Source: Peptoniphilaceae bacterium
Lineage (GTDB): Bacteria; Bacillota; Clostridia; Tissierellales; Peptoniphilaceae
Direction: 5' to 3'
DNA length: 39,260 bases
Assembly (NCBI GenBank): GCA_022769085.1
Contig: JALEKO010000001.1
Coordinates: 85,135-124,394 of the forward strand
The notes below the pieces were generated by a model, which worked only from the letters and a program-made list of their open reading frames with translations, ran no database searches and was not told the origin of the DNA. Shown here in pieces: positions 4,075 through 24,226 of this stretch. The number at the start of each line of letters is the position of its first letter. Position 1 is the stretch's first letter. The position numbers were made by a program, and so were the translations under genes.

Positions 4075-4091
4075 ATATATATATATATATA
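4075..4091. repeat. (AT)8 dinucleotide tract
   Basis: Eight and a half consecutive AT units end three bases before TATAAT (4094-4099). Dinucleotide tracts of this kind can change length by slippage during replication. The tract would lie in the spacer of a promoter using that -10. Confidence 0.9.
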
Positions 4092-4093
4092 GG

Positions 4094-4099
4094 TATAAT
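4094..4099 (+). promoter_or_regulatory. Candidate -10 element for the surface-polymer operon
   Basis: A perfect TATAAT follows the AT tract. The hexamer 17 bases upstream (GTGAAT) is a poor -35, so the promoter call is tentative. If used, it would give a leader of about 190 bases before the first gene. Confidence 0.3.
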
Positions 4100-4298
4100 A
4101 GCAAAAGAATACATTGTTATTTATGATACTTGAGTTCAAAAGAATATAGAAAATTAGAACTGATTTCATCTACTAATTTGCTTGTTCGAATTTTAAATTG
4201 TACTAAAAAGCATTTACATATCATATTATAATTATGAATAGTTTATGCAAAATATATATTGTTTTTTGTATTTTATTAAATAATTTTAAGGAGAAATT

Positions 4299-4979: not shown

Positions 4980-4987
4980 GAGAAAAT

Positions 4988-5647: not shown

Positions 5648-5657
5648 GAGATAAAAA

Positions 5658-6446: not shown

Positions 6447-6449
6447 GCT

Positions 6450-6902: not shown

Positions 6903-6964
6903 AAAGTATAAATTTAAAACTTTTTACAGAAGTTAAAAATTTATAGATGTAAATAGAGGAAAAA

Positions 6965-8386: not shown

Positions 8387-8417
8387 TAATATTTTTGTGT
8401 ATGTGAAGGTAAAAATA

Positions 8418-8495
8418 ATGAAAACATTAGTTAAACTATCAAATAAAAGATTTGCATTTGTAATAGCTTATAATTACTTAAACTCTAAGCTATAA
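8418..8495 (+). other. Possible 25-codon small reading frame in the gap before the sugar genes
   Basis: An ATG with GAAGGT eight bases upstream opens a 25-codon frame (MKTLVKLSNKRF..., ending LNSKL). A 7-base inverted repeat (TAGCTTA / TAAGCTA) overlaps its end. I recognise no family, and the length is within chance for such AT-rich DNA. It could equally be a remnant or part of a leader. Confidence 0.2.
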
Positions 8496-8550
8496 GTTAT
8501 AGGCAAGATAAAAGAAATAATGAAAAAATATAGATTTAAGAGGGTGAATT

Positions 8551-10491
8551 ATGGAAAAAATGTTAAATAAAAAATTTAAATTAGAATCATTATATTTATT
8601 AATCTATGATATAGTAGCATCCAATTTATCATATTTTTTGGCCCTTTTTTTGAGATTTGATTTAAAATTTTCGTTGATACCAGAAGAATATTTAATGTCT
8701 TTTGTTAAGTTTATTCCAATTTATACAATATTCTTAGTTATTATTTTTCATATTTTTAGACTTTACAAAAGCTTATGGAAATATGCCAGTTTTGGAGAAT
8801 TAAACAGAATTTTATTAGCTACATTAATCACATCTGTTTTTCATATCATAGCTATAACAATTTTATTTAATAAAATGCCTAGATCATACTATATAATAGG
8901 AGCACTATTACAACTTGTTGCAATAACTGGAATAAGATTCTCATACAGATTTGTATCCTTACTTAATAATACAAAAGGAATAAAAAAAGGTTCAGAAAGT
9001 AATGTTATGATTATAGGAGCAGGACAAGCAGGGCAAGTAATAATAAGAGAACTTATATATTCTGATAAATTATCATCAAAACCTGTTTGCATAATAGATG
9101 ATAACAAAGAAAAATGGGGATACTATTTTTTAAATATTCCTATAGTAGGTGGAAGAGATAAAATTTTACAGGCGGCAGAAAAATATAATGTCGATAAAAT
9201 TATGGTTTCAATTCCAAGTGCTAGTCGTAAAGATAAAAAAGATATTTTAAATATTTGTAAGGAAACAAAATGTGAACTTTTAAGTTTGCCTGGAATATAC
9301 CAACTTGCTAACGGGGAAGTTTCACTTAATAACATGAAAAATGTTAATATTGAAGATCTTCTTGGAAGAGATTCGATAAAAGTAAACATGGATGAGAATT
9401 TGGCCGATACAAATGGAAAAACTATCTTAGTTACTGGCGGTGGTGGAACTATAGGATCAGAACTTTGCAGACAACTTGCTTTGCATGCTCCAAAAAGAAT
9501 AATAATTTTTGATATATATGAAAATAATGCCTATGATATAGAACAAGAACTTAGAAGAAAATATCCAAAATTAGATTTAATAGTCTTAATAGGTTCAGTT
9601 AGGGATTATAGAAGAGTTGACATGATATTTGAAAAATATAGACCTGAATTAGTATATCATGCTGCAGCTCATAAACACGTGCCTTTAATGGAGAATAGTC
9701 CAAATGAAACCATAAAAAATAACGTGGTTGGAACATATAATACGGCATTTGCAGCCTTAAAATATCATACAAAAAAATTTGTTCTTATATCAACTGATAA
9801 GGCAGTAAATCCTACAAATATTATGGGTGCAAGTAAAAGAATTTGTGAGATGATTATGCAATCATTCGATCAAGTTATAAAAGAAGACAAGTTTGACCTA
9901 TTACCATACTTAGATGTAAATAAAGATAATGCTTATTTAAAAGTTTTGGAAGATGATAAAGAAACTTACAAAACACAATTTGTAGCCGTTAGATTTGGAA
10001 ATGTTTTGGGAAGTAGCGGTTCTGTTATCCCTTTATTTAAAAAACAAATAGCAGAAGGAGGCCCTGTAACAGTAACAGATCCTGAAATAGTAAGATTTTT
10101 TATGACCATACCAGAAGCGGTAAGCCTTGTGTTACAAGCAGGAAGATATGCTAAAGGTGGAGAAATTTTTATTTTAGATATGGGAGAACCAGTAAAAATA
10201 GATACATTAGCAAGAAATTTAATAAAACTTTCGGGTTATGAGCCAGATGTAGATATAAAAATCAAATACATAGGACTAAGACCTGGAGAAAAGATGTATG
10301 AAGAAAAACTAATGGATGAGGAGGGATTAAAGAAAACAGAAAATGACATTATTCATATAGGTAAACCAATAGAATTTGATCTAGAAGAATTTTTAGCCTT
10401 ATTAAAAGAAGCATCAGATCTAAGTGTAGAAAATACTGATAAGATATATGATTTAGTAAAAAGAATGATAAAAACCTATAATAGAAAATAA
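8551..10491 (+). CDS. Membrane nucleotide-sugar 4,6-dehydratase, PglF/WbpM/CapD type
   Basis: Predicted to convert UDP-GlcNAc to UDP-4-keto-6-deoxy-GlcNAc, the first step to bacillosamine-type sugars. The 646 residues have four membrane segments (about 15-120), a CoA-binding-like Rossmann domain (IIGAGQAGQV, about 152-161) and the catalytic short-chain dehydrogenase domain (TGGGGTIGSELCRQL, about 293-307). YHAAAHKHVPLME and STDKAVNPTNIMGASKR (about 413-430) are diagnostic. Methionine in MGASK replaces the usual catalytic tyrosine, the Ser-Met-Lys arrangement known for WbpM/PglF. The C-terminal IGLRPGEKMYEE block is also present. The aminotransferase and the PglC-like transferase follow, giving a complete dehydratase-aminotransferase-loading trio. 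Confidence 0.93.
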   Translation: MEKMLNKKFKLESLYLLIYDIVASNLSYFLALFLRFDLKFSLIPEEYLMSFVKFIPIYTIFLVIIFHIFRLYKSLWKYASFGELNRILLATLITSVFHIIAITILFNKMPRSYYIIGALLQLVAITGIRFSYRFVSLLNNTKGIKKGSESNVMIIGAGQAGQVIIRELIYSDKLSSKPVCIIDDNKEKWGYYFLNIPIVGGRDKILQAAEKYNVDKIMVSIPSASRKDKKDILNICKETKCELLSLPGIYQLANGEVSLNNMKNVNIEDLLGRDSIKVNMDENLADTNGKTILVTGGGGTIGSELCRQLALHAPKRIIIFDIYENNAYDIEQELRRKYPKLDLIVLIGSVRDYRRVDMIFEKYRPELVYHAAAHKHVPLMENSPNETIKNNVVGTYNTAFAALKYHTKKFVLISTDKAVNPTNIMGASKRICEMIMQSFDQVIKEDKFDLLPYLDVNKDNAYLKVLEDDKETYKTQFVAVRFGNVLGSSGSVIPLFKKQIAEGGPVTVTDPEIVRFFMTIPEAVSLVLQAGRYAKGGEIFILDMGEPVKIDTLARNLIKLSGYEPDVDIKIKYIGLRPGEKMYEEKLMDEEGLKKTENDIIHIGKPIEFDLEEFLALLKEASDLSVENTDKIYDLVKRMIKTYNRK

Positions 10492-10509
10492 TCTAAGGAG
10501 GATAAGCTA

Positions 10510-11781
10510 GTGTTTATTGGTGAAAATGATAAGTTTAAAAAGTTTGAAAATAAAATATGGCTTTCAAGTCCTACAATGCATGGAGAAGAACTTTACTATA
10601 TTAAAAAAGCCTATGATACAAATTGGATGTCAACTATTGGAGAAAATATTGATGTAATTGAAGAAAAAATAGCAGAAAAAATAGGAGTATATTATTCAGT
10701 GGCTTTAGCATCAGGAACATCAGCACTTCACCTAGCCATGAAACTTGCAGGTATAAAAAGGGGCGATAAGGTTTTTTGCCAAGATTTGACTTTTGCAGCA
10801 ACAGTAAATCCAATAGTTTATGAAGGGGGAGAACCTGTATTTATAGATAGCGAATATGATACATGGAATATGGACCCTGTAGCTTTAGAAAAAGCATTTG
10901 AAATTTTCCCAGAAGTAAAAGTGATTGTAGTTGCTCATCTTTATGGAACTCCTAGTAAAATTGATCAAATAAGACAAATAGCTGATAAACACGGTGCTAT
11001 AATAGTTGAAGATGCAGCAGAATCATTTGGTGCGACATACAAAGGAAAAGAAACTGGTTCTTTTGGGGACTATAATGCAATATCATTTAATGGAAACAAA
11101 ATCATAACAGGTTCTTCAGGAGGAATGCTTTTAACAGAAAATAAAGAAGCAGCAGAAAAGGTAAGAAAATGGTCAACTCAATCTAGAGAAAATGCTCCTT
11201 GGTATCAACATGAGGAAATAGGCTATAATTATAGGATGAGCAATGTAATAGCAGGCGTAGTAAGAGGACAAATTCCATATCTTAAAGAACATATTGCACA
11301 AAAAAAAGAAATCTATTACAGGTATAAAGAAGGATTAAAAAATCTTCCAATAAAGATGAATCCATTTGATAAAGAAAATTCAAAACCAAATTATTGGCTA
11401 TCTTGCATGATTATAGATAATAAAGCTATGGCTAAACAAGTAAGAAGTGAAACAGAAGCACTTTATACTAGAGAAAAGGGAAAGTCTTCTCCAACAGAAA
11501 TATTAGAAACACTTGCAAAATATAATGCAGAGGCAAGGCCTATTTGGAAACCAATGCATATGCAAGCAATTTTTAGAAATAGTAGCTTTATAACAAGAGA
11601 GGGTAATGGAAGGGCAAAAACTAATGCTTACATTAAAGGAGGTTCTGTAGGAAAAGATGGAAAGCCTTTAGATGTTGGTATGGATATTTTTAATAGAGGT
11701 TTATGTCTTCCAAGCGATAATAAAATCACAAAAGAAGAACAAGATGAAATTATAAAAATTATTAAGGCTTGTTTTAATTAA
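10510..11781 (+). CDS. DegT/DnrJ/EryC1 sugar aminotransferase, PglE-like
   Basis: A PLP-dependent enzyme predicted to aminate C4 of the 4-keto sugar made by the preceding dehydratase, giving a UDP-4-amino-4,6-dideoxy-GlcNAc type sugar. Family blocks: SGTSALHLAM (about residues 66-75), VAHLYGTPSKIDQI (about 140-153), EDAAESFGATYKGKETGSFGD (split around residues 166-186) and SFNGNKIITGSSGGM, where the predicted Schiff-base lysine is Lys197. YNYRMSNVIAGVVRGQ also fits. It starts at GTG with AAGGAGGA about nine bases upstream; no ATG is in place. Length 423 is slightly above the usual 370-400. The product stereochemistry (4-amino-gluco or -galacto) cannot be told from sequence. Confidence 0.92.
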   Translation: MFIGENDKFKKFENKIWLSSPTMHGEELYYIKKAYDTNWMSTIGENIDVIEEKIAEKIGVYYSVALASGTSALHLAMKLAGIKRGDKVFCQDLTFAATVNPIVYEGGEPVFIDSEYDTWNMDPVALEKAFEIFPEVKVIVVAHLYGTPSKIDQIRQIADKHGAIIVEDAAESFGATYKGKETGSFGDYNAISFNGNKIITGSSGGMLLTENKEAAEKVRKWSTQSRENAPWYQHEEIGYNYRMSNVIAGVVRGQIPYLKEHIAQKKEIYYRYKEGLKNLPIKMNPFDKENSKPNYWLSCMIIDNKAMAKQVRSETEALYTREKGKSSPTEILETLAKYNAEARPIWKPMHMQAIFRNSSFITREGNGRAKTNAYIKGGSVGKDGKPLDVGMDIFNRGLCLPSDNKITKEEQDEIIKIIKACFN

Positions 11782-11801
11782 AATTAGCTAAAAGGATAGT
11801 A

Positions 11802-12449
11802 ATGGAAAAGAGAAAAAAGGGAATTTATGAAAAGTATATAAAAAGACTTTTAGATATTATTTTATCTTTGATTGCAATTATAGTATTATCTCCTTTATTG
11901 CTTATACTAGTTATACTAATAAATATTAAACTTGGTTCTCCTGTTATATTTACACAAAAAAGACCTGGAAAGGATGAAAAAATATTTAAATTATATAAGT
12001 TTAGATCTATGACAGATAAAAGAGATGAAAATGGGAATCTCCTTCCAGATGATCAAAGATTAACTTCATTTGGTAGGAAATTAAGGTCCACTTCATTAGA
12101 TGAGCTGCCAGAACTTTTTAATATTTTAAAAGGGGATATGTCTATAATAGGGCCTAGACCTTTGTTAGTTGAATATCTACCTTATTATACTAAAGAAGAA
12201 CATGAAAGACACAGGGTAAGACCAGGTTTATCAGGACTTGCACAAGTTAATGGTAGAAATGCTAGCAAATGGGATGACAGGTTAGCTATGGATGTGAAAT
12301 ATGTAAATAATATAACTTTTATTGAAGATGTAAAATTGGTTTTTTTAACTATGTATAAAACAATAAAAAGATCGGATATTTTAGTTGGCTCTGAGATACC
12401 TTCTGGTAAGTTATATGATGCTAGGAGTAAAAATGGAATTAACTATTAG
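11802..12449 (+). CDS. Small undecaprenyl-phosphate sugar-1-phosphate transferase, PglC-like
   Basis: Starts the lipid-linked unit by moving a sugar-1-phosphate from UDP to undecaprenyl phosphate. It is the short monotopic form (215 residues) with a single N-terminal re-entrant hydrophobic helix (about 15-38) followed by the catalytic part: FTQKRPGKDEKIFKLYKFRSM, split around residues 47-67, then STSLDELPELFN with the Asp-Glu pair (about 98-109), GDMSIIGPRPLL (about 113-124) and RPGLSGLAQVNGRN. This is the PglC class, not the larger WbaP/WcaJ class. Its neighbours supply a 4-amino sugar, which suggests that sugar is its donor. It overlaps the next gene by 17 bases. It is the only sugar-transfer enzyme I can recognise in the operon. 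Confidence 0.95.
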   Translation: MEKRKKGIYEKYIKRLLDIILSLIAIIVLSPLLLILVILINIKLGSPVIFTQKRPGKDEKIFKLYKFRSMTDKRDENGNLLPDDQRLTSFGRKLRSTSLDELPELFNILKGDMSIIGPRPLLVEYLPYYTKEEHERHRVRPGLSGLAQVNGRNASKWDDRLAMDVKYVNNITFIEDVKLVFLTMYKTIKRSDILVGSEIPSGKLYDARSKNGINY

Positions 12450-13860
12450 AAAATTTGGATTTGATGATATTGAAAAAAAGATAGAATGGATAAATAATCC
12501 AGAAAATAACACTTATCTTCATTATGATTTACCCCTGGAATATGATAAAACTGTCAAATGGTTTAAAGAAAATAAAGATAATAAAAATAGATTTGATTTT
12601 GTAATAGAAGTTGATGAAAAGCCGGTTGGTCTTATAGGGATCTTATCAATAGATTATCAAAGAAAAAATGGTGAATATTATATTTGTATGGGAGAAGTTG
12701 CTTATAAGAAAAGGGGCATAGCCAAAAAAGCTTCAAACTTATTATTAAACTTTGCTTTTAATAAAATTGGACTTGAAAATATTTATCTTTATACAGAAGT
12801 TTCTAATATACCAGCTTTAAAATCATTTAAAAAGATTGGTTTTAATTTATTAGAAGGTATAGAAAATATAATAAATTATAAGGATAGAGAAGTTAAAAGA
12901 TTTGTATTAAATATAAGTAAAGCAGATTTTTATTTAAAAAATCAAAATACGCCAATTAATAATCTTAATACTTTTAATAAGAATAATATTTTTATAAAAA
13001 GAGATGATTTAATAGCTTATTCTTTTGGAGGAAATAAGGCAAGAAAAGCTATTAAATTTTTCCAATATATAGATTTTTTAAAAAGTGATTATGTAGTAAC
13101 ATATGGTAGCAGTCATTCTAATCATTGTAGAATAGTAGCTAATTTAGCTGCAAAAAGAAATATTCCTTGTTTAATAATAAGTCCAAAAGAAAGTTCTGAT
13201 AAAACTAAAAATAGTATATTTATGAAACTTTTTGGTGCAAATATAATAACAGTCCCAGTTGAAAAAGTAAGCGAAACAATAGATAAAAAATTAGAAGAAT
13301 TAAGAAATATGGGCTACAAACCTTATTTTATCCCTGGAGGGGGACACGGGAATATAGGAACACAAGCCTATTTAGAATGCTATGAAGAAATAAAAAAATA
13401 TGAAACTAGAAATAATATTAAATTTGATTATATTTTTTTAGCATCTGGAACAGGCACAAGTCAGGCAGGTCTTGTTTGTGGCAAAATTTTAAATAATGAT
13501 AAAATAAAAATTATTGGAATTAGTATTGCTAGAAAAAATCCAAGAGGAAGAGATATTATAAAAGATAGTATAAGGCAGTACTTGCCAACAATAGAAGAAA
13601 AAATAGTAGATGAAAATACTATATTTGTAGATGACTATGTATTATCAGGCTACAGCGGATATGATGAGGAAATAATAAATACAATCAAAGAAAATATGAT
13701 AAATTATGGGATTCCTATGGATAGTACTTATACAGCCAAGGCTTATCTTGGAATGAAAAAATATCTTATAAGTAAAAAAATTAAAGATAAAAATATTTTA
13801 TTTATCCATACAGGGGGAACGCCACTATTCTTTGATGATTTAGATAAATTGAAAGTTTAG
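12433..13860 (+). CDS. Fusion: GNAT N-acetyltransferase + ACC deaminase/D-cysteine desulfhydrase-like PLP domain
   Basis: Two enzymes in one 475-residue chain. Residues 1 to about 165 are a GNAT acetyltransferase of the RimJ/PseH kind (MELTIRKFGFDDIEK start, EVAYKKRGIAKKAS acetyl-CoA loop, NIPALKSFKKIGF end block). Residues about 175-475 are a fold-type II PLP domain: KRDDL, FGGNKARK with predicted lysine Lys202, SHSNHCR in place of the QSNHTR block of ACC deaminases, PGGGHGNIGTQAY, LASGTGTSQAG and HTGGTP. The first ATG of the longer open frame (12385) lies inside the preceding gene; ATG 12433 has TAGGAG six bases upstream. The GNAT half could acetylate the 4-amino sugar, as no PglD is present. 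The PLP half could make an alpha-keto acid or alter an amino acid. Both roles are inferred. Confidence 0.85.
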   Translation: MELTIRKFGFDDIEKKIEWINNPENNTYLHYDLPLEYDKTVKWFKENKDNKNRFDFVIEVDEKPVGLIGILSIDYQRKNGEYYICMGEVAYKKRGIAKKASNLLLNFAFNKIGLENIYLYTEVSNIPALKSFKKIGFNLLEGIENIINYKDREVKRFVLNISKADFYLKNQNTPINNLNTFNKNNIFIKRDDLIAYSFGGNKARKAIKFFQYIDFLKSDYVVTYGSSHSNHCRIVANLAAKRNIPCLIISPKESSDKTKNSIFMKLFGANIITVPVEKVSETIDKKLEELRNMGYKPYFIPGGGHGNIGTQAYLECYEEIKKYETRNNIKFDYIFLASGTGTSQAGLVCGKILNNDKIKIIGISIARKNPRGRDIIKDSIRQYLPTIEEKIVDENTIFVDDYVLSGYSGYDEEIINTIKENMINYGIPMDSTYTAKAYLGMKKYLISKKIKDKNILFIHTGGTPLFFDDLDKLKV

Positions 13861-13867
13861 GTAAATT

Positions 13868-14839
13868 ATGAATATATTAATATTAAGCGCAGGAACTAGA
13901 AATAAAATAATACAATATTTCAAAAAAGAATTAGCAGGTAGAGGTAAAGTTATTGCTACAGATATGAGTAAACTTGCTCCTGCTATTTATGAAGCTGATA
14001 AATATTATATTGTTCCTAAAATAAGTGATCCTAATTACATTGATGTAATTTTAGATATATGTAAAAAAGAAAATATATCTGGGCTTTTGTCCTTAATTGA
14101 CCCAGAACTATCATTATTAGCATTAAATAATAAAAAGTTTAAAGATATAGGAGTAAAAATAATAGGCTCTTCATATGAGGCTTGTGAAAAATCATTAGAT
14201 AAATTTGAAATGTTTAAATGGTTAGATAAGCACGGATATAATTGTGCAAAAACATACATAAACAAGGAAGACTTTTATAAAGATTTAAATTCTCAAAAAA
14301 TAAAATTTCCAGTTTTTGTAAAACCAGTTAAAGGTTCTGCAAGTATATCAATATCAAAAGTAAATAATAAAGAAACTGTAGATTTATTATTTTTAAATAA
14401 TAAAGATTTGATAATACAGGAATTTTTAGATGGTCAAGAAATAGGTGCAGACGTATATATAGATATGATTAGCAAAAAAGTTGTATCTATTTTTACAAAG
14501 AAAAAAATAAAAATGAGATCTGGAGAAACAGATAAATCTGTGTCCTTTAAAGATGAAAAATTGTTTAGCCTAATTAAAAAATTTGTTAAAGAATTTGGCT
14601 ATACATGTCAAATTGATATAGACATTTTTGATGTAAATGGAAAATATTATATATCGGAAGTAAATCCTAGATTTGGTGGAGGATATCCTCATGCTTATGA
14701 GTGTGGGGTAAATAATATGAAACTAATTTATAATAATCTTATTGGCATAGAAAATAAAGAAAATATTGATTATGAAGATGGTATTTATATGATGAAATAT
14801 AATGAAGTATGCATAAAAAAGGTGGAAAATGAGAAGTAA
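13868..14839 (+). CDS. ATP-grasp ligase, CarB/PylC-like
   Basis: An ATP-grasp enzyme that should activate a carboxylate as acyl phosphate and join it to an amine. The N-terminal part (ILILSAGTRNKI, residues 3-14) is a pre-ATP-grasp Rossmann-like domain. The ATP-grasp core has FPVFVKPVKGSASI (about residues 147-160), IIQEFLDGQEIGADVY (about 182-197) and the metal-binding YISEVNPRFGGGYPHA (about 262-277). The glycine-rich lid and Glu/Asn residues look intact, so it should be active. Length 323 fits the CarB-like family seen in surface-glycan loci. TTTAGGT precedes the start, 7 bases after the fusion gene, and it overlaps the next ATP-grasp gene by 11 bases. The substrate is not known. Confidence 0.88.
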   Translation: MNILILSAGTRNKIIQYFKKELAGRGKVIATDMSKLAPAIYEADKYYIVPKISDPNYIDVILDICKKENISGLLSLIDPELSLLALNNKKFKDIGVKIIGSSYEACEKSLDKFEMFKWLDKHGYNCAKTYINKEDFYKDLNSQKIKFPVFVKPVKGSASISISKVNNKETVDLLFLNNKDLIIQEFLDGQEIGADVYIDMISKKVVSIFTKKKIKMRSGETDKSVSFKDEKLFSLIKKFVKEFGYTCQIDIDIFDVNGKYYISEVNPRFGGGYPHAYECGVNNMKLIYNNLIGIENKENIDYEDGIYMMKYNEVCIKKVENEK

Positions 14840-15920
14840 CTTTAGAAAAAAGTGGGACAGTTTTAACATGAATGTTGAAAGCTTCTATCGTATGCATTCT
14901 TATAGAAAAAAAGCTAAGCTAAGGCTTAAACGTATGAATGGTGGCTTTAATTGTGATAAGGAATATAGAGAAATAGTCATACCTTATTGGAAAAAATATG
15001 GGATAAAACCAGCTAAAATGTGGTATCAAATATTTTCTGATAGAGATAAAAAAGTTGATCCAAGATATATACCAGATGATTTGTGGTATGGAAAAATAGT
15101 TCCATATTTTAGCAATACACAATTTAGAAGATTTGGCGAAGATAAGTGTATGCACTATAAATTTTTTGATGATTTACTAAGACCTAAAACAATAGCGAAG
15201 AATATGGCAGGAGTATTTTATGATGATAAAATGCAAATAATTGATAAGAACAAAGCCATAGATTTGTGTATGAAATATGACGGAGAATTTTTAGTAAAGC
15301 CATCTATTGACAGTGGAGAAGGTAGACTTATTAGTTTTTTCAATAATGATAATAAATCTAGAAAAAATATTGAAGAAGCAATAGATGATTTAAAGGCAAA
15401 TTTCATATTTCAAGAATCAGTTAAACAAAATAACGAGTTAAAAAGATTAAATCCATCATCTCTTAATACTATAAGGCTTGTTACATTTTTATTTGAAGGT
15501 GAGGTTCATATCTTATCTTCTATTTTAAGAATAGGTGGAAGAGGGTCAAAAGTTGATAACATTGGAGCAGGTGGCTTTGCTTGCCATATAAATGATGATG
15601 GACGTCTTGATTATAGGGGGGTAAATAGAAAAGCAGAATGGGTAAGTGTTGGTCATGATGATATTTTATTTAAAGATATAGTAGTACCATCTTATGAAAA
15701 GATAATAGATATAGTAAAACAAAAACATAAAACACTACCTCACTTTAAACTAATAGGCTGGGATTTTTCTGTAAATGGTAGAGATCTTCCTGTATTTATA
15801 GAGTACAATACTTGCCCTGGTTCAAATCAAATAACATGTGGGCCAACATTTGGAGATTTAACTGATAAAGTATTAGATGAAGTTTTTGTTAAGAAAAGCT
15901 TGAAATATGCTCAAAATTAA
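14829..15920 (+). CDS. Sugar-transfer-associated ATP-grasp enzyme, copy 1
   Basis: Member of the ATP-grasp family named for its association with sugar transferases (ATPgrasp_ST); the reaction is not established. The N-terminal about 110 residues are basic and aromatic, possibly membrane-peripheral. Core blocks are GEFLVKPSIDSGEGR (about 153-167, ATP lysine), SLNTIRLVTF (about 210-219), SSILRIGGRGSKVDNIGAGG (about 228-247), KLIGWDFSVNG (about 307-317) and VFIEYNTCPGSNQ (about 321-333, metal site). All blocks look intact. The start ATG follows AAGGTGG and overlaps the CarB-like gene by 11 bases, implying coupled translation. A related protein is encoded at 17041-18015, with the opine dehydrogenase between them. 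Confidence 0.88.
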   Translation: MRSNFRKKWDSFNMNVESFYRMHSYRKKAKLRLKRMNGGFNCDKEYREIVIPYWKKYGIKPAKMWYQIFSDRDKKVDPRYIPDDLWYGKIVPYFSNTQFRRFGEDKCMHYKFFDDLLRPKTIAKNMAGVFYDDKMQIIDKNKAIDLCMKYDGEFLVKPSIDSGEGRLISFFNNDNKSRKNIEEAIDDLKANFIFQESVKQNNELKRLNPSSLNTIRLVTFLFEGEVHILSSILRIGGRGSKVDNIGAGGFACHINDDGRLDYRGVNRKAEWVSVGHDDILFKDIVVPSYEKIIDIVKQKHKTLPHFKLIGWDFSVNGRDLPVFIEYNTCPGSNQITCGPTFGDLTDKVLDEVFVKKSLKYAQN

Positions 15921-15932
15921 AAGGGGTGAGAT

Positions 15933-17015
15933 ATGAAAATAGCAATTTTAGGAGCCGGCAATGCAGGATGTGCGACTGCAGCAGATTTAACTTTAAAAGG
16001 TCATGAAGTAACACTAATTAAGACATCTCATGCTATGCATGATGATAACTTCGATTATTTATTAAAAAATAATGGAAAAATGACTCTAAATGAATTTGGA
16101 GAAATAAAAACCGCTTATATCAACAAAGTAACAAGAGATATAAATGAAATAAAAAATGCAGAAGTATTAATCATTTATATTCAAACTAATTATCATGAAG
16201 ATTTAATAAAAAGAATATCAAATATTTTAGTTGATGGACAAATTTTATTAATTAATCCTGGATATCTATCAACAGCATATGTTTTAAAACATTGCCAAAA
16301 TAAAAATATAATTGTAGCAGAAGCAGAAAGTTCATTTATTGATGGGCGTATTATGAAACCCGGATATTTTAGGGTTGGATTTAGAAATGTAAGAAATCCT
16401 ATAGGGATATATCCATCAAATAAAAGAAAAGATGCAATAGAAAAACTTGATAAGTTAGATGAACGCTTTGTATATCTTAATTCTGTAGTGGAGGCTGCCT
16501 TACACAATCCTAACCTAATAGTCCATACTGTGGGTTCAGTAATGAGCATACCAAGGATAGAAAAATCAAAAGGTGACTTTACTATGTATTATGAGGCATA
16601 TTCAAGAGATAATGTTGCAACCTGGAAAATATTAGAAAAATTAGATTCTGAAAAAATGAATGTTTTAGAAAAGTTAGGCTATAATAGACTATCTTATGTA
16701 GAAGCTTGCAAATATAGAAATTCTCTTGATGAAAAAGAAGATGCTAAGGAAGTATTTTTATCTTATGCTGAGATGGATACAAGAGCAAAAGGACCTACAA
16801 AGGTCGATTCCAGATATATTTCAGAGGATGTCCCACAAGGTTTAGTTATGTTAGAAGCTTTAGGAAAATCATTAGACCTACCTACTCCTATAACTACAGC
16901 TTTAATAGAGATAGCAAGTGCAGCTTTAGGTAGAGATTTAAGAAAAGAGGGAAGGACTCCCGAGAAATTAGGTCAAAATAATATAGATAAAATTTTAAAG
17001 GATAGTAATAATTAA
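15933..17015 (+). CDS. Opine dehydrogenase (octopine/nopaline dehydrogenase family)
   Basis: NAD(P)H-dependent enzyme expected to join the amino group of an amino acid to an alpha-keto acid by reductive condensation, giving an N-(carboxyalkyl)amino acid (opine). Residues 1 to about 175 form a Rossmann domain with the nucleotide loop GAGNAGCATAADL (7-19). The rest is the octopine dehydrogenase domain: ALHNPNLIVHTVG (about 188-200), YYEAYS (about 212-217) and SRYISEDVPQGLV (about 292-304), which carry the family's substrate and catalytic residues. The 360-residue length is typical. The ribosome binding site is AAAAGGGGTGAG. It sits between two ATP-grasp genes, so its product is a candidate substrate for them. 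The amino and keto acid partners cannot be told from sequence. Confidence 0.92.
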   Translation: MKIAILGAGNAGCATAADLTLKGHEVTLIKTSHAMHDDNFDYLLKNNGKMTLNEFGEIKTAYINKVTRDINEIKNAEVLIIYIQTNYHEDLIKRISNILVDGQILLINPGYLSTAYVLKHCQNKNIIVAEAESSFIDGRIMKPGYFRVGFRNVRNPIGIYPSNKRKDAIEKLDKLDERFVYLNSVVEAALHNPNLIVHTVGSVMSIPRIEKSKGDFTMYYEAYSRDNVATWKILEKLDSEKMNVLEKLGYNRLSYVEACKYRNSLDEKEDAKEVFLSYAEMDTRAKGPTKVDSRYISEDVPQGLVMLEALGKSLDLPTPITTALIEIASAALGRDLRKEGRTPEKLGQNNIDKILKDSNN

Positions 17016-17040
17016 TTTATAAAAAATAGATAGGTGTAAA

Positions 17041-18015
17041 ATGGAAAATATATTTCAAAAAATTAAAAGATTTAATGAAACTATAGATAATGAAGTTGAT
17101 TATGATTTAAATATCTTAAATAAGATATATCTATTTTTTGACTTTGTAAAAGAATATTTGTTTCATAAGACAATGCTATTAGATTATACACAGTATAGGT
17201 TTTATGAAAAAAAGAATAGACAAAGACGTAAGTATGTAGTTTTTGGTAGATTAATAGAGTTAATGAATACCTGTAATGACCCAAATTATAGGTATATATT
17301 TGATAACAAGAGTGAATTTAATAAAAAATTTGCCAAATACATAAACAGAGATTGGCTTGATTTATCAAATACAAGCTTAGAGGATTTTAAAAAATTTGCT
17401 AATTCAAATCCCGAATTTTTTATAAAAGATCCTACTGGAATGTTTGGTATGGGGATAAAAAAAATTAAGACAAATGAGATAGATAACATTGAAAAAACCT
17501 ATGAGGATCTTAAAGCAAAATCAGTTTTATGTGAACAACCAATAATACAATCAGATGAAATGAATGAATTTAATAAGTCTACAGTTAATACATTAAGAGT
17601 GGTATCAATGATTGATAGGAATAATAATGTGCATATAATTGGAGGATTATTAAGGTTAGGTAGACCAGGCAGATATGCAGATAATTTTCATCACCAAGGG
17701 ATAGCTGCATATATTAATCCTGAATATGGTATAGTCTCAACAATGGGATTTGATAAAAATAAAGATTGGCATATAGTTCATCCTGATTCAAAAAAGAAAA
17801 TTGTAGGATATACAATTCCTATGTGGGATAAAGTTGTTGAAACAATAAAAAGTGCAGCCTTAGAAGTACCTCAAATGAGGTATATAGGATGGGACGTGGC
17901 AATAACTAAAGACAACAAAGTTGAACTTGTAGAAGGAAACTCTGGAGCAGATCCAGATGCAGAACAAATAACAACAAAAGAAGGAAGGTGGGATTATTAC
18001 AAAAAGTATATGTAG
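17041..18015 (+). CDS. Sugar-transfer-associated ATP-grasp enzyme, copy 2
   Basis: A second ATPgrasp_ST protein of 324 residues, clearly related to the one at 14829-15920 but well diverged. Matching blocks are EFFIKDPTGMFGMGIKK (about 126-142; here KDPTG replaces KPSID), VNTLRVVSMI (about 181-190), GGLLRLGRPGRYADNFHHQG (about 201-220), RYIGWDVAIT (about 280-289) and VELVEGNSGADPD (about 294-306). The metal-site segment reads EGN where copy 1 has EYN. The N-terminus (about 1-90) again has aromatic and basic stretches, including HKTMLLDYTQYRFYEKK. AGGTG lies five bases before ATG. Two non-identical copies suggest two different acceptor or donor compounds; that is inference. Confidence 0.87.
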   Translation: MENIFQKIKRFNETIDNEVDYDLNILNKIYLFFDFVKEYLFHKTMLLDYTQYRFYEKKNRQRRKYVVFGRLIELMNTCNDPNYRYIFDNKSEFNKKFAKYINRDWLDLSNTSLEDFKKFANSNPEFFIKDPTGMFGMGIKKIKTNEIDNIEKTYEDLKAKSVLCEQPIIQSDEMNEFNKSTVNTLRVVSMIDRNNNVHIIGGLLRLGRPGRYADNFHHQGIAAYINPEYGIVSTMGFDKNKDWHIVHPDSKKKIVGYTIPMWDKVVETIKSAALEVPQMRYIGWDVAITKDNKVELVEGNSGADPDAEQITTKEGRWDYYKKYM

Positions 18016-18026
18016 GAGTTTTATAT

Positions 18027-19067
18027 ATGAATAAAGTAAACTTTTTAAATGATTATAGTGAAACTGGTTGTCCTGAAATTTTAGAAGAAATGTATAGGCT
18101 ATCCTTAGAAAAAAATCTACCTTATATGAATGATAAGCATACTTTGATAGCTAAGGAGTATATTAGAAATAAAATAAAAGATAAGGACGCTGAAATTCAA
18201 TTTATGATAACTGGTACACAAACAAACTTAGTAGCAGCTGCAGCTTTTTTAAGGCCTCACGAAGCGATAATCTGTGTAAAGGATGCACATATAAATGTAC
18301 ATGAAACAGGTTCAATAGAATCTACGGGGCATAAGTGTTTAAGTGTAGATGGTGTAGATGGGAAAGTTACTGCTAAAGATATTGAAAAAATTTGTGGCCC
18401 ATCATACTGGGATAATGCAGGAATATTATGTGTAAAACCAAAAATGGTTTATATCAGTCAAACAACAGAAATAGGTACCCATTATAGTTTGGATGAGTTA
18501 AAGTCTTTAAGAAATGTATGCGATAAGTACGGACTTTATTTATATCTAGATGGTGCAAGACTTGGGAGTTCTTTGGCTTGCTCTGATGTTGGATTTTCTG
18601 ATTTAGCAAAATATTGCGACTCCTTTTATATAGGAGGGGCTAAAAATGGAGCGGCTTTAGGAGAGGCTTTAGTTATTATAAATGATAAGCTTAAAGAAGA
18701 TATAGGATTTATCGCCAAACAAAATGGAGCAGTTTTAGCTAAAGGCTGGATATTAGCTTTACAATTTGAAATTTTAATGAGAGATGGTCTTTTTGAAAAA
18801 AATGGAGAATATTCAACAAAAATGGCCATGATTTTGAAGGAAAAATTATTAAATATTGGGGTTTGTTTTGACGTTGAAACATTTTCTAATCAATTATTTC
18901 CTATATTTACAAACCAAGTAATAGAAAAATTGGAAGATTATGCTTTATTTGATTTAATTAAGACAATTGATGAAGATAGGAAAGTTATAAGATTTGTTAC
19001 AAGTTGGGCGACAAAGCTAGAGGATATAGAATTTTTGGTATCAAAGATAGAAAAATTACAAAGTTAG
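18027..19067 (+). CDS. Threonine aldolase-like PLP enzyme (beta-eliminating lyase family)
   Basis: Fold-type I PLP enzyme of the low-specificity threonine aldolase family, which splits or forms beta-hydroxy amino acids; some relatives act as amino acid racemases. Blocks: NDYSETGCPEIL (about residues 6-17), ITGTQTNLVAAAAFLRP (about 55-71), YISQTTEIGTHYSLDEL (about 137-153), LYLDGARLGSSL (about 174-185) and IGGAKNGAALGEA (about 202-214) with predicted PLP lysine Lys206. Length 346 is normal. I start it at ATG 18027, with TAGGAG eight bases upstream; the longer frame from 17988 would run back into the preceding gene. In this operon it probably provides or modifies an amino acid for the polymer rather than serving general threonine metabolism. 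Confidence 0.88.
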   Translation: MNKVNFLNDYSETGCPEILEEMYRLSLEKNLPYMNDKHTLIAKEYIRNKIKDKDAEIQFMITGTQTNLVAAAAFLRPHEAIICVKDAHINVHETGSIESTGHKCLSVDGVDGKVTAKDIEKICGPSYWDNAGILCVKPKMVYISQTTEIGTHYSLDELKSLRNVCDKYGLYLYLDGARLGSSLACSDVGFSDLAKYCDSFYIGGAKNGAALGEALVIINDKLKEDIGFIAKQNGAVLAKGWILALQFEILMRDGLFEKNGEYSTKMAMILKEKLLNIGVCFDVETFSNQLFPIFTNQVIEKLEDYALFDLIKTIDEDRKVIRFVTSWATKLEDIEFLVSKIEKLQS

Positions 19068-19093
19068 TATTTAAATAAAGGAAATTAATATAA

Positions 19094-20413
19094 ATGAATT
19101 CGATCTTAAAAAGACGTATAAATTTAAATATTTTTAAAAATCATAATATTGATTCTATCTTATTAATACTATGGATATTCCAATTTATCATATTGGCTTC
19201 TGAAAAATATTTATTGACTAGAATTGGTATTGGAAAAGGTTTGGTTAGGGAAACGATAATTTGGATAAGCACATTTTTTCCATTATTAATTTTTTTATTT
19301 AATTTAAAAAAATATAAATTGAAAAAATATTTTAGTTTTTTTGTACTATTAAATTTAATAATAATAATTTTAATGGTATCTTTAATATTTAATCCTGATT
19401 TATTTGAATTTTATTTCAAAAAAAATTATGGAATAGACAGAATACTAAGACCTGACAGTGCAATATTTGCTTTTTTATTCTTTCAATTATTCGATAATCA
19501 TAAAAAATTATTGGATACACTAATAAAAATATCTTTGATATATTTTATATTTACAGTTGTTATAGAGCTAATACCTGCTATAAAAGCTGGTTATTGGACG
19601 GATATTGGCGCCGATGGAAATCAAATAAAACTGACATATAATCTTTCTTTTGGATACAAACTTACATTTCCAACAATTTTATTTATTTATTCTTTTGTTT
19701 TTCAAAAAAAGAAAATATTTTTATTAAATTCAATAATAGGTTTTTTATTGATTTTGATTTATGGAAATAGGGGAGCTATACTAGTAATTCTTATTTATAT
19801 TTTCCTTATTTTATTAAGTCTTCTTGAAAAATATAGTTTGCCAAAAAAGATATTACTTATATCATCATTAATTGTTCTATCTTTATTACTTATTCACTAT
19901 TTGGACTCGATTATATTATTCTTCGCAAATGTCCTCGAAAGATTTAACATAAATTCAAGAACATTAAGGCTTTTAGCTTATGGTCGAATTTCAGAAGATA
20001 ATGGGAGAGATATAATTTGGGACCTTGTAATTGATGCAATAAAACAAGGGGGCATTTTAGGATATGGTATTCTTGGCGATAGACCATTCGTTTCACCTAT
20101 TCATTATGTTGGATATTCTCACAATATATTTTTAGAATTAGTAGTTAGCTTTGGAATATTTGGTTATTTTGTAATACTTTACCTTATCATAGATGCAATA
20201 AAAATGATATTTTTTTGCAAAAACAAATATAGCAAGCAGCTTTACATTATATTTTTCTCAGTAGCTTGCCAACTTTTACTTTCTATGTCTTTTTGGTTTG
20301 TTTGGGAATTTTGGGCTATGCTTGCAATTTCATTTTCGTATAAGAGAATGGAAAAAGAAAAAAATAAAGTTAGGTTGGTAGATAGATTTGAAAGAAACTA
20401 TAAGAAAAAATAA
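19094..20413 (+). CDS. wzy: Wzy-type O-unit polymerase
   Basis: Joins lipid-linked units into polymer on the outer face of the membrane. The 439-residue protein is almost wholly hydrophobic with 10-12 membrane segments. The large loop near the C-terminal third contains the polymerase/ligase block: GRISEDNGRDIIWDLVIDAI (about 297-316), then GYGILGDRPFV and GYSHNIFLELVVSFGIFGY (about 340-358). The histidine in SHN and the arginine in NGRD are typical of the family. NRGAILVI (about 225-232) is also characteristic. The ribosome binding site AAAGGA is 11-12 bases from ATG, rather far. The flippase gene overlaps its end. Wzy proteins differ greatly between strains, so the sugar linkage cannot be read. 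Confidence 0.9.
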   Translation: MNSILKRRINLNIFKNHNIDSILLILWIFQFIILASEKYLLTRIGIGKGLVRETIIWISTFFPLLIFLFNLKKYKLKKYFSFFVLLNLIIIILMVSLIFNPDLFEFYFKKNYGIDRILRPDSAIFAFLFFQLFDNHKKLLDTLIKISLIYFIFTVVIELIPAIKAGYWTDIGADGNQIKLTYNLSFGYKLTFPTILFIYSFVFQKKKIFLLNSIIGFLLILIYGNRGAILVILIYIFLILLSLLEKYSLPKKILLISSLIVLSLLLIHYLDSIILFFANVLERFNINSRTLRLLAYGRISEDNGRDIIWDLVIDAIKQGGILGYGILGDRPFVSPIHYVGYSHNIFLELVVSFGIFGYFVILYLIIDAIKMIFFCKNKYSKQLYIIFFSVACQLLLSMSFWFVWEFWAMLAISFSYKRMEKEKNKVRLVDRFERNYKKK

Positions 20414-21821
20414 AACAGATTCATCAATTATTGCTAAGGCAGGCCTTTGGTTTACAGTATGTAATTTTTTATTTAAAGGAATGGCTTTTTTAACTGCTCC
20501 AATATTTACTAGATTATTAAGTAAAAAAGAATTAGGAGAATTCAGTAATTATTCTACTATTATTTGGATTGCGTTGGCAATAACATCTTTAGATCTGTCA
20601 ACTTCAATAATTAGGTCTAAAATCGAACACGAGAAAGATATAGACAGCTATGTTTGGTCAATTTTGTCTTTTTCATCAATATTTACGGCTGTTATATATT
20701 TATTTTGTATATTAAATATGAAATTTGTTAGTGGATTATTGAATGTAGAAGCTAAATATATACATGTGATGTTTTTCTACTGCCTTTTCTCACCTGCCTA
20801 TAGTATGCTTATAACTAAACATAGGGCATTTTATAAATACAAAACTTTTGTACTGCTTACTGCAATTGTAACAGTATCTTCAACTTTATTATCAATAATT
20901 CTAGTTTTAAAACTAGATGATAAGCTGTGGGGAAGATCATTGGGTCAATATTTACCAAGTATACTAATGGGTGTAATAATATTTATATATATAGCAGTAA
21001 ATGGTAAAAAAATAAAATTAAAGTATTGGAAATATGCCTTAATTATTTGTGTACCATTGGTACCACACGTTTTGTCGCTTAATCTTTTAAGTGTAAGTGA
21101 TAAGTTAGTGCTTACAAGAATAAGTGGTCCTGAGATTACAGCTATTTATTCTGTGGCAAGCAATTGTTATAGTATAGTAACGGTTATGATGAATTCTATG
21201 AATAGTGCATGGACACCTTGGCTATTTGAAAATTTAAATCTGAAAAATTACAATGAAATCAGTAAAATATCAAAGAAATATATAATTTTTTTCACAATTT
21301 GTTCTTTCTTTGTAATGCTAATTGGTCCGGAATTAATACTGTTTTTTGGAGGGGAAAGGTACAAGGAAGCTGTTTATTGTCTTAACCCATTAATTTGTAG
21401 TTGTGTTATTCAGTTCATATATTTATTTTATGTAAATGTTGAATTTTATACAAAAAAAACAATAGGTGTTTCTATAGCAACAGGTATAAGTGCCTTAATT
21501 AATATAATATTAAATATAATCTTTATAAAAATGTTTAAGGGTATAGGATATATTGTAGCTTCTTATACAACATTAGTAGGTTATACAATATTATTACTTT
21601 TGCATTACTATATTACTAAGTTATTAAAAATGAATCATGTATTTGATAATAAATTTTTTATGAAATTAAGCATCATAACTATACTTTTATCTTTTGCTGT
21701 AAAATTATTGTATGGTTATATCGTATTGAGATACAGCGTAATATTAATCTATTCAATAATTTTGATATATATAATGTATAGTGAAAAATCGGAAATAATC
21801 GGCATCTTAAGAAAAAGGTAA
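20388..21821 (+). CDS. wzx: Wzx-type lipid-linked unit flippase (MOP/MATE superfamily)
   Basis: Moves the undecaprenyl-linked unit across the membrane. The 477 residues have 12-14 hydrophobic segments, and the N-terminal signature AGLWFTVCNFLFKGMAFLTA (about 17-36) with FTRLLSKKELGEFS (about 40-53) is typical of polysaccharide transport proteins. It begins at TTG inside wzy (26-base overlap). The next ATG (near residue 32) would remove most of the first membrane helix, so TTG is preferred; the ribosome binding site (AGG about 13 bases upstream) is weak, and expression may depend on coupling to wzy. Confidence 0.88.
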   Translation: MKETIRKNKTDSSIIAKAGLWFTVCNFLFKGMAFLTAPIFTRLLSKKELGEFSNYSTIIWIALAITSLDLSTSIIRSKIEHEKDIDSYVWSILSFSSIFTAVIYLFCILNMKFVSGLLNVEAKYIHVMFFYCLFSPAYSMLITKHRAFYKYKTFVLLTAIVTVSSTLLSIILVLKLDDKLWGRSLGQYLPSILMGVIIFIYIAVNGKKIKLKYWKYALIICVPLVPHVLSLNLLSVSDKLVLTRISGPEITAIYSVASNCYSIVTVMMNSMNSAWTPWLFENLNLKNYNEISKISKKYIIFFTICSFFVMLIGPELILFFGGERYKEAVYCLNPLICSCVIQFIYLFYVNVEFYTKKTIGVSIATGISALINIILNIIFIKMFKGIGYIVASYTTLVGYTILLLLHYYITKLLKMNHVFDNKFFMKLSIITILLSFAVKLLYGYIVLRYSVILIYSIILIYIMYSEKSEIIGILRKR

Positions 21822-21875
21822 AATTTTATTTTTGCACAATTATATGTACACTATCTAAATTATTATGGAGGATAT

Positions 21876-23141
21876 ATGATAAAAACCAAGAAATTTAATG
21901 AGCAAGGACTTATAAAAAAAGATTGTGAAAATTTAATAAAATTAAGTTTTTTTGGAGATATAACTTGTGATAAGCCTTTATTAGAATATTCAAAAAAAAA
22001 TAATGGAAAATTTGATTTTTCTCCAGTATTTTCTAAAATAACTTCCCTCATATGTAATTCAGATTATAATATAGCTAATTTTGAAACTGTGTGTGCAGGT
22101 TTTTCTAGTGATTCTAAAAGAGAATTTTTCCTTTTGAACACACCCGATGAAATAGTTTTTGCAATAAAAGATTGTGGAATAGATTTTTTAACAACAGCTA
22201 ATAATCATTGCTTAGATTATGGATTTGACGGTCTTTTTAGAACTTTATCTTTATTAGATGAAAATAATATATCTCATTCAGGAACTTATAGAACTTATGA
22301 GGAAAGTTCTGTTTTAAACAATATTATAGAAATAGAAGGAATAAAAATAGCTATATTAGCCTATACATATAGTACTAATGAATCGAATACTGGAATAGTA
22401 CTTGATGAAAGTAATGATTATCATGTAGGCCTTCTTAGAGAACAAATTGATTTAGCTAAAGAAAGCAAAGGTATAAAAGGAATTTTAGCTAGGAATATTA
22501 GTCCAAAAACAAGAAGAAGAATTCAAAGAATAAGAAATAGGGCTAAGTTAGGTTTGGGAATTTCATATTTTAAACCATATACTGATAGAATAACAAAGTA
22601 TGATAATGAAAATAGTAAGTATTTAATTAAAATGAAAGAAGATATTTTAAAAGCAAAAAGAAATGCAGATATTGTAGTTGTTTGTCCACATATGGGAGGG
22701 CAGTTTAATGAAAAGCCGGGTGAATATTCAGAATTTATAGTTAATTATATAGATAAATGTGGAGCAGATTTAATTGTGGCAAATCATCCACATGTAGTGC
22801 AAAAAGTGCTAAATCATGACGGAAAAGTTATTGCTTATTCTTTAGGCTCATTTAATCTTTCTTTAAGTGCAGATTATATAGTTCATGAAAGCTTACCACA
22901 ATATTCTATAGTTTTACATGTATATATAAATACTTCTAAAACAAAAATTATAAAAGTAACATTTTCAATATTAAAAATTATTGAAGATGATAACAAGGGT
23001 ATAATAGTTTATCCTCTTGATAAACTTCCTGAAAAATTTATTAGTGAAGATGTATTAAAAGAAATAACTGCAATATATAATAGAGTTACTGGAAATAGTT
23101 GTACAAAAATTGATATTTTAGAAGAATATGATTTAGCATAG
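21876..23141 (+). CDS. CapA/PgsA-family metallophosphatase-like protein
   Basis: Member of the family that includes the PgsA/CapA subunit of poly-gamma-glutamate synthases, and other surface-polymer loci. The fold is calcineurin-like: KLSFFGDITCDKPLL (about residues 24-38), NIANFETVCAG (about 65-75), TTANNHCLDYGFDGL (about 106-120), VVVCPHMGGQFNEKPGEY (about 268-285) and ANHPHVVQKVL (about 303-313) followed by YSLGSFNLS. The usual HWG block reads HMG. There is no N-terminal membrane segment in this frame, unlike PgsA, so it may act in the cytoplasm. A good GGAGG lies before ATG. It is the last gene of the operon, 54 bases after wzx. Its reaction is unknown. Confidence 0.88.
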   Translation: MIKTKKFNEQGLIKKDCENLIKLSFFGDITCDKPLLEYSKKNNGKFDFSPVFSKITSLICNSDYNIANFETVCAGFSSDSKREFFLLNTPDEIVFAIKDCGIDFLTTANNHCLDYGFDGLFRTLSLLDENNISHSGTYRTYEESSVLNNIIEIEGIKIAILAYTYSTNESNTGIVLDESNDYHVGLLREQIDLAKESKGIKGILARNISPKTRRRIQRIRNRAKLGLGISYFKPYTDRITKYDNENSKYLIKMKEDILKAKRNADIVVVCPHMGGQFNEKPGEYSEFIVNYIDKCGADLIVANHPHVVQKVLNHDGKVIAYSLGSFNLSLSADYIVHESLPQYSIVLHVYINTSKTKIIKVTFSILKIIEDDNKGIIVYPLDKLPEKFISEDVLKEITAIYNRVTGNSCTKIDILEEYDLA

Positions 23142-23260: not shown

Positions 23261-24226
23261 TTATTTTAAAAGTCCAATAGCAAGTCCAACATAGTTATTT
23301 TGATCAACTAATGTTGCAGATGAAACAGCGTCAGATTTTTCAAGATCTTTTTCAACTTCATCTTTTGTTTTTCCTGCTAAATAAGCTTCCATGTTTTGAT
23401 ATCCTTCTGCAATTTGTTGAGTTGCATCAGCATGTTCTTTCATTGCTTTTGAATAATCTTCGTTATTCCATCTTTTACTTACAAGAGCCTTATCAGCATA
23501 TCCTTCAGCAAAACCTGCATCAGAATTTGGAAGTGGATTTGTAGCATCCATAAATTGGAATTCATCAAAATGAGCAGCTGCTATTTTTTTGCCGTCAGTT
23601 GCAACTGCAACTTGAGCAAATGATTTATCCCCATGAGGAGCACCTAAACCTACATTAAGTTCAAGTTTTGAAGGGTCATCAACTTTAATTCCAACGCTTT
23701 GTAATTTATCAAATTTAGCAGCTTTTGCTATAAGCTCAAGATATCCTTTTGTATCTACAAGTGTTGAGCTTGTAACTTCATCTACAATTTTATCTCCCTT
23801 ATCTTTTAATTCATTTTCAAGGTCTGATATTTTCTTTCCTTTTACAAAATCTTCGATAGCTGTGTAATTTTCTAAAATTGTATGAGTTGCATCAGCATGT
23901 TCTTTCATATTTTTAGAATAAAAGTCATTGTTTTCTTTTTTACTAATAAGAACTTTTCCGTCAGCATATCCTTTTGCAAATTCTCCGTCAGAACTAGGAA
24001 CACCTTTAGCATCCCCATTGCTGTCAGTAAATTGGAACTCATCAATATATGCATCAAAAATTGTATCTCCATCAGTTAAAACATAAACAGTTCCCACAGA
24101 TTTATCACCATGAGGAGCTCCGTACATTTTCCTTATCATAACTTCTCCATTTGCATTTGATTTTGAAAGCGGAATCAAAAGTGCTAAAGAAGAAGCAAGT
24201 AAAAGAGATCTAAATAATTTCTTCAT
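23261..24226 (-). CDS. Secreted protein with two tandem FMN-binding-like repeats
   Basis: I know no name for this 321-residue protein. Residues 1-26 form a signal peptide (AxA-like end SNA-NG, no lipobox cysteine). Two homologous repeats follow, about 36-171 and 195-321. Each starts with GAPHGDKS, continues with TDG, a DEFQF block, a GYAD block, YSK.MKEHADAT and ends with D-x-V-(S/T)-S-(A/S)-T-L-V-D. This end resembles the D-x-x-S-G-A-T-x-T site of FMN-binding domains, where ApbE attaches FMN to threonine; here the glycine is serine (Thr155 and Thr305 are the candidates). The two-domain plan recalls PplA-type extracellular flavoproteins. The start has AAGGAGG and a TTGACA/TATAAT promoter. Function is inferred from motif likeness only. 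Confidence 0.7.
   Translation of the reverse strand: MKKLFRSLLLASSLALLIPLSKSNANGEVMIRKMYGAPHGDKSVGTVYVLTDGDTIFDAYIDEFQFTDSNGDAKGVPSSDGEFAKGYADGKVLISKKENNDFYSKNMKEHADATHTILENYTAIEDFVKGKKISDLENELKDKGDKIVDEVTSSTLVDTKGYLELIAKAAKFDKLQSVGIKVDDPSKLELNVGLGAPHGDKSFAQVAVATDGKKIAAAHFDEFQFMDATNPLPNSDAGFAEGYADKALVSKRWNNEDYSKAMKEHADATQQIAEGYQNMEAYLAGKTKDEVEKDLEKSDAVSSATLVDQNNYVGLAIGLLK

Follow-up and report, generated by a model that had tools for sequence, protein, structure and literature searches.

What does an opine dehydrogenase do between two ATP-grasp ligases in the middle of a surface-polymer operon? The question is raised by the window analysed here, a stretch of 39,260 nucleotides from a Peptoniphilaceae bacterium. 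An open reading frame at 15933-17015 (+), with an ATG start and a strong Shine-Dalgarno sequence (AAAGGGGTGAG) upstream, encodes a full-length protein of 360 amino acids (ODH) that matches the Pfam family Octopine_DH (PF02317, E 1.9e-39) and has 1bg6, an opine dehydrogenase from Arthrobacter, as its best PDB sequence match (E 1.3e-32). The gene is flanked on both sides, on the same strand and with gaps of 12 and 25 bp, by genes of the PF14397 family (ATPgrasp_ST), here called ST1 (14829-15920; E 4.7e-34, 118.3 bits) and ST2 (17041-18015; E 2.4e-45, 155.4 bits), both above the curated cut-off of 31.4 bits. Directly upstream of ST1 is a third ATP-grasp gene (13868-14839, +), PylC-like by its Pfam match and probably a third amide-forming enzyme. 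In the assembled genome, which is 82% complete, the ODH is the sole Octopine_DH match, and ST1 and ST2 are the only two ATPgrasp_ST matches. The preliminary description of an Octopine_DH gene between two ATP-grasp genes in a surface-polymer operon was confirmed by Pfam, the PDB match, an AlphaFold model and the neighbouring genes.

The operon is of the Wzx/Wzy type and spans about 4.3-23.1 kb, its main genes (4299 to 23141) all lying on one strand (+). It opens with export and attachment genes (4299-8386) encoding Wzz (4299), a tyrosine-kinase-type ATPase (4988), a CpsB phosphatase (5658), an SH3 lipoprotein (6450) and a LytR-CpsA-Psr protein (6965). Three sugar-pathway genes follow, for a PglF-like UDP-GlcNAc 4,6-dehydratase (8551-10491; PDB match WlaL/PglF, 5bju, 4e-80), a PglE-like sugar 4-aminotransferase (10510-11781; PDB match 4ztc, 5e-75, titled 'aminotransferase homolog', which we take to be PglE) and a PglC-like phospho-sugar transferase predicted to initiate on undecaprenyl phosphate (11802-12449; PDB match 8g1n, 8e-71). 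A GNAT acetyltransferase is then fused to a PLP enzyme of the D-cysteine desulfhydrase/ACC deaminase family (12385-13860; Pfam and PDB searches); the PDB search matches its PALP domain to ACC deaminase/D-cysteine desulfhydrase, and an unusual amino acid is likely to be provided or modified by the fusion. Beyond the PylC-like gene, ST1, the ODH and ST2 come a threonine-aldolase-like PLP enzyme (17988-19067; PDB match 1svv, E 1e-79), likely to supply threonine, allo-threonine or a similar beta-hydroxy amino acid, a Wzy-type polymerase (19094-20413; Pfam Wzy_C), a Wzx-type flippase (20388-21821; Pfam Polysacc_synt) and a CapA/PgsA-like PGA_cap protein (21876-23141; Pfam) that recurs in homologous loci. 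The aldolase, the PALP domain and the three ligases together suggest that further unusual amino acids are incorporated.

Of the hallmarks of a Wzx/Wzy locus, the PglC-like initiator, the Polysacc_synt flippase, the Wzy_C polymerase and the Wzz chain-length protein are present, and the dedicated glycosyltransferases that would assemble a unit of several sugars are lacking. Besides the initiator, no glycosyltransferase family match was found among the operon genes that were profile-searched, and the repeat unit may for this reason contain one sugar only. Outside the operon, a genome census made with PF00535 and PF00534 only gave two GT2 and four GT4 matches, and an unlinked glycosyltransferase could act on the unit. 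Beyond the operon, 23261-24226 (-) encodes an apparently secreted protein of 321 amino acids whose halves resemble each other (GAPHGDKS...); Pfam gave nothing for it at E 0.001. Further on, a TPP riboswitch (30183-30278, -) lies upstream of a membrane protein gene (29588-30142, -) whose product looks like a thiamine transporter subunit.

The same layout is found in a single-contig genome of the same family (G368, 99% complete), in the order LCP-Wzz-Wze-PglE-PglC-ATPgrasp-PALP-PylC-ST1-ODH-hexapeptide transferase-ST2-aldolase-Wzy-Wzx, where Wzz is assigned by position and Wze by 28% identity. Besides the PglC-like initiator, no glycosyltransferase was found in this operon either, and the only two GT2 genes of the genome are far from it. 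Wzx/Wzy operons of this kind, with no glycosyltransferase other than the initiator, were observed in the window (8551-23141) and in L142 and L145 (G368). A more distant operon (L012) retains PglE-PglC-GNAT-PALP-PylC-ST1-ODH-ST2 but adds a GT2 gene; there GNAT and PALP are two separate, overlapping genes, and the PALP homologue in L142 has no adjoining GNAT and is accompanied by an extra ATP-grasp gene. In the window, L012, L141 and L142 the ST1-ODH pair sits mid-operon in conserved order, among tightly packed polymer genes and other ATP-grasp ligases.

The identity of the dehydrogenase was examined with an AlphaFold model built from an alignment of 33 relatives (mean pLDDT 92). It has the two-domain Octopine_DH fold, with an N-terminal Rossmann domain (GxGxxG/A) and a C-terminal helical domain, and superposes on 1bg6 with Z 39.1 and an rmsd of 2.3 over 339 residues; matches to the octopine, pseudopaline, yersinopine and staphylopine dehydrogenases are lower (Z 25-33). 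His198 and Asp299 align with His202 and Asp297 of 1bg6, a His-Asp dyad described as catalytic and general for the opine dehydrogenase family (PMC10787698, PMC2924402). The dyad together with Asn192, Glu130 and Arg294 is universal in comparison with 1bg6 and 53 background enzymes, and His198, Asp299, Asn194 and Tyr111 are invariant across the 33 subfamily members aligned. The protein very probably makes an opine.

The subfamily to which it belongs is distinct, its members being about 51-77% identical; relatives at about 50-77% identity were drawn from a genome contigs collection and from phylum and family samples. Octopine_DH genes are common in the phylum (above the cut-off in 86 of 299 sampled genomes) and, one relative at 55% aside, only about 24-35% identical; a plasmid collection held only distant opine dehydrogenases, with at most 32% identity among the matches listed. 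The active site differs from that of these background enzymes at several positions. Residue 111 is Tyr in the subfamily, Ala in 1bg6 and Arg in 48 of the 53 background enzymes, and it is Arg at this position, together with Gly198, that sets the preference for acidic amino acids (PMC10787698). Residue 258 is Ala in all 33 members; 1bg6 and 48 of the 53 background enzymes have Trp there. A key active-site Trp is reported as conserved among opine dehydrogenases (PMC10787698); from the alignment this is probably Trp258 of 1bg6, a residue that five of the 53 background members also lack. After the second Rossmann strand, Lys30-Thr31-Ser32 stands where 1bg6 has Asp34-Ile35-Asp36. Lys30 is, like Tyr111 and Ala258, an invariant change of the subfamily, and together these residues point to a different amine substrate and to use of NADPH. 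With Ala in place of the usual Trp and Tyr at position 111, the substrate need not be a canonical amino acid.

Whether the ligase belongs with the dehydrogenase was addressed by a census of 35 loci from the genome contigs collection, of which 33 were evaluable after exclusion of L026 and L032, which are cut off by a contig end at the ODH or beside it. In 23 of these the gene directly upstream of the ODH is an ATPgrasp_ST, and some ATP-grasp gene adjoins the ODH in 26, the three further loci (L004, L029 and L033) having a TupA-like ATP-grasp. The latter type also flanks the ODH in L007. Two proteins of L007, an ATPgrasp_ST (5789-8869) and a Mur-ligase-like protein (13628-15385), each bear a C-terminal BspA-type leucine-rich repeat, which is odd on presumably cytoplasmic ligases, and the Cerasibacillus polymer locus L004 contains a 440-residue open reading frame (2927-4249) that has no Pfam match.

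A tree was computed for 52 ATPgrasp_ST proteins, and 21 of the 22 ligases encoded upstream of an ODH fall into a single clade (support 100/99), from which randomly drawn ATPgrasp_ST proteins and others of the same loci, including ST2 of the window, a member of a different subfamily, are excluded. None of the sampled background Octopine_DH genes adjoins an ATP-grasp gene within the roughly 1.5 kb examined on each side; they adjoin a long open reading frame of about 440-500 codons that probably encodes a transporter. Nine of the ten genomes with stand-alone pairs were searched for ATPgrasp_ST (all except that of L024), and in seven (L008, L019, L021, L022, L023, L028 and L031) the ODH neighbour is the sole match above the cut-off; the L018 and L027 genomes have further ones. 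The ODH-ligase link is therefore strong and specific, and ST1 is a dedicated partner co-inherited with the ODH. Distances within the two proteins correlate (r = 0.90, 14 pairs), a value that shared ancestry alone could give. No PDB sequence relative of ST1 was found below E 0.2. Its model (pLDDT 89.5) matches RimK, a Streptomyces ATP-grasp peptide ligase, LysX/ArgX and D-Ala-D-Ala ligases (Z 14-16), consistent with an amide ligase, a fold match that is not diagnostic of substrate.

The pair has a wider distribution than the polymer operons. About eight of the 33 loci are polymer loci, with the window, L141 and L142 in addition, and about 18 consist of a bare ligase-ODH pair, often as ODH-ST1-ODH, around which no polymer genes were recognised and nothing is conserved. 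This count is approximate, since most neighbours were classed through their resemblance to window genes, with Pfam used for some, and a number of the contigs are short. The remaining seven have an ODH without adjacent ATP-grasp. They include two Planococcus-type genomes and two Bacilli MAGs; in the MAGs the genes around the ODH are a PglF-like one, BacA and one resembling an undecaprenyl-phosphate translocase. In L010 and L017 the subfamily ODH is flanked by BacA (undecaprenyl pyrophosphatase) on one side and by an undecaprenyl-phosphate translocase-like gene plus VanZ on the other, and a PglF-like gene is close by. Five of the ten stand-alone genomes, all MAGs and possibly incomplete, lack any PglC-type transferase (PF02397), which together with the bare pairs argues that the pair does not need such a polymer. 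Three deeper-branching relatives (L070, L143 and L144, at about 50-55% identity) lie beside unrelated genes and have no ATP-grasp; the pairing therefore does not extend to the whole of the wider family.

The ODH tree places the members from polymer, TupA, undecaprenyl and Planococcus-type loci in a single group (94/99), which is nested within the stand-alone set. Rooted with distant outgroups on long branches and with some weak basal forks, the tree suggests that ST1-ODH is likely an older, self-contained two-gene module that was later recruited into polymer loci. In seven loci (L008, L013, L015, L022, L023, L028 and L030) two diverged ODH copies surround one ligase, one copy being a fragment in some contigs; this ODH-ST1-ODH arrangement is suggestive of two opine-forming steps. 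Rfam scans of the stand-alone loci and the window found no riboswitch upstream of the pair.

The expectations of the preliminary description were borne out in part. It had proposed that an opine is made here and attached by a neighbouring ATP-grasp ligase, and the core of this idea, an opine dehydrogenase paired with a ligase, survives, with an enzyme of the right family bearing the dyad and a specific ligase link in its favour. Its generality is weakened: homologues mostly have ATP-grasp neighbours and mostly lack polymer genes, so that co-occurrence with the latter is a minority context.

Opine dehydrogenases form a secondary amine from a keto acid and an amino acid, and ATP-grasp ligases form an amide from a carboxylate. 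Given this established chemistry, a dedicated ODH-ligase pair fits a pathway that makes an opine and attaches it. In the reading we prefer, to which we give an even chance, the ODH would condense a 2-keto acid, probably pyruvate, reductively with the amino group of an amino acid, using NADPH, to yield an N-(carboxyalkyl) amino acid, and ST1 would activate a carboxylate and form the amide between the opine and an amine. The acceptor in this operon would most likely belong to a repeat unit assembled on a 4-amino-4,6-dideoxy sugar that is linked to undecaprenyl-PP and comes from the PglF/PglE/PglC-like pathway; it could be the sugar's own amine or an amino acid that the PylC-like ligase or ST2 had added beforehand. 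Wzx would then flip the unit and Wzy polymerise it, and the LCP protein would link the product to the wall. The cofactor, the keto acid, the amino acid, the order of the two steps, the acceptor and the linkage are all predictions from the genes. The GNAT domain tells against this reading, as it could acetylate the sugar 4-amine and block it, and so do the bare pairs, the altered pocket and the seven loci whose ODH has no ATP-grasp beside it. Wzy might join units from the anomeric carbon of the sugar to a hydroxyl of that sugar or of a beta-hydroxy amino acid, which is speculation. A fuller version, possible though doubtful, is a glycosyl-opinopeptide polymer in which a single PglC-initiated amino sugar, carrying unusual amino acids and an opine added by ligases, is polymerised by Wzy with no glycosyltransferase besides the initiator, and in which the ST1-ODH pair would derive from a hitherto unrecognised stand-alone module making a new opine amide.

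The many bare pairs raise the alternative that ST1-ODH makes a free small molecule, an opine amide serving as solute, storage compound or signal, and that the pair sits in this polymer operon through reuse of that metabolite, or is linked to it with no attachment taking place. Such a product fits the stand-alone operons (ST1-ODH or ODH-ST1-ODH) seen in many digester Clostridia, which are set off by large gaps and lack conserved neighbours, as well as the genomes without PF02397 and the nesting of the polymer-locus ODHs. The position of the pair in the window, L012, L141 and L142, mid-operon among other ligases in conserved order, does not, nor does the absence of any exporter or uptake gene travelling with the pair, and we regard a free product as unlikely. 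The stand-alone pairs bear equally on a different substrate for the dehydrogenase. Instead of using a free amino acid, the ODH might couple the keto acid reductively to the sugar, through the 4-amino group of its UDP- or lipid-linked form, or to a growing chain, through the terminal amine of a peptide already placed by ST1. Without the active-site Trp, which is lost in every member, the pocket could accommodate a larger amine, and in gene order the ligase precedes the ODH. Against this, some genomes with a stand-alone pair lack the sugar-pathway transferase, and the ODH is conserved to a similar degree with and without polymer genes around it (identity to the window protein mostly 61-77%), which argues for one common, probably small, substrate and makes a sugar or chain substrate distinctly improbable.

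Metallophore synthesis or ordinary opine metabolism, with no tie to the polymer, is by far the least probable account. The family is that of the staphylopine, pseudopaline and yersinopine dehydrogenases (Z 29-32), and in the CntM neighbourhoods surveyed in PMC7438024 a nicotianamine synthase homologue lay directly upstream in all clusters but one. Here that position is held by an ATPgrasp_ST ligase and there is no nicotianamine synthase, and the metallophore reading was rejected. Ordinary opine dehydrogenases sampled from Firmicutes adjoin the open reading frame of about 440-500 codons and mostly have Arg111 and Trp258, unlike the subfamily.

The attachment of an opine by ST1, the reading preferred here, has a chemical precedent. 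The preliminary description had pointed to opine-type substituents in bacterial O-antigens, and according to PMC10609480 (its ref. 48) the O-antigen of Providencia alcalifaciens O35 contains an alanopine derivative of 4-amino-4,6-dideoxyglucose; the same paper gives N-epsilon-(1-carboxyethyl)lysine for P. rustigianii O14. The PglF/PglE/PglC-like enzymes of the window operon accord with this precedent. In the literature searched, opine-decorated bacterial glycans appear only as chemical structures, none tied to an opine dehydrogenase and a ligase. The searches returned no paper that joins an opine dehydrogenase with an ATP-grasp enzyme or places one in an O-antigen cluster (supplementary files aside), none that combines opine dehydrogenase, ATP-grasp and polysaccharide, and no characterised ATPgrasp_ST or TupA-like ligase paired with an opine dehydrogenase. 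The ODH-ST1 pairing suggests a route by which bacteria may build opines into cell-surface polymers, and the altered pocket of the subfamily points to a substrate outside the known opines. The co-inherited pair offers a genetic handle for finding opine-bearing polymers and a small two-enzyme system for direct assay.

Compared with known systems, the window ODH shares with the Arthrobacter N-(1-D-carboxyethyl)-L-norvaline dehydrogenase (ArODH, 1bg6) its fold, a full-length alignment, the His-Asp dyad, Asn198, Arg292 and Glu134, and differs in having Tyr for Ala111, Ala for Trp258, an NADPH-like Lys-Thr-Ser for Asp34-Ile35-Asp36, and a gene paired with an ATP-grasp ligase. As in the staphylopine, pseudopaline and yersinopine operons, an opine dehydrogenase is proposed to complete the product, whereas the window has a ligase instead of nicotianamine synthase and a polymer context. 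ST1 and ST2 belong to the ATPgrasp_ST family of the ATPgrasp_ST/TupA-like (teichuronopeptide-type) systems, and TupA-like enzymes lie beside some ODHs. The Providencia O35 and O14 antigens are surface polymers with an opine, and the sugar-pathway enzymes of the window are of the type that makes a 4-amino-4,6-dideoxy sugar; theirs are Gram-negative lipopolysaccharides known by structure, whereas the window polymer is known from genes alone. In the Campylobacter Pgl pathway, PglF, PglE and PglC are the closest or near-closest solved structures for three window genes, but in place of the Pgl glycosyltransferases the window operon has the GNAT-PALP fusion and three ATP-grasp ligases.
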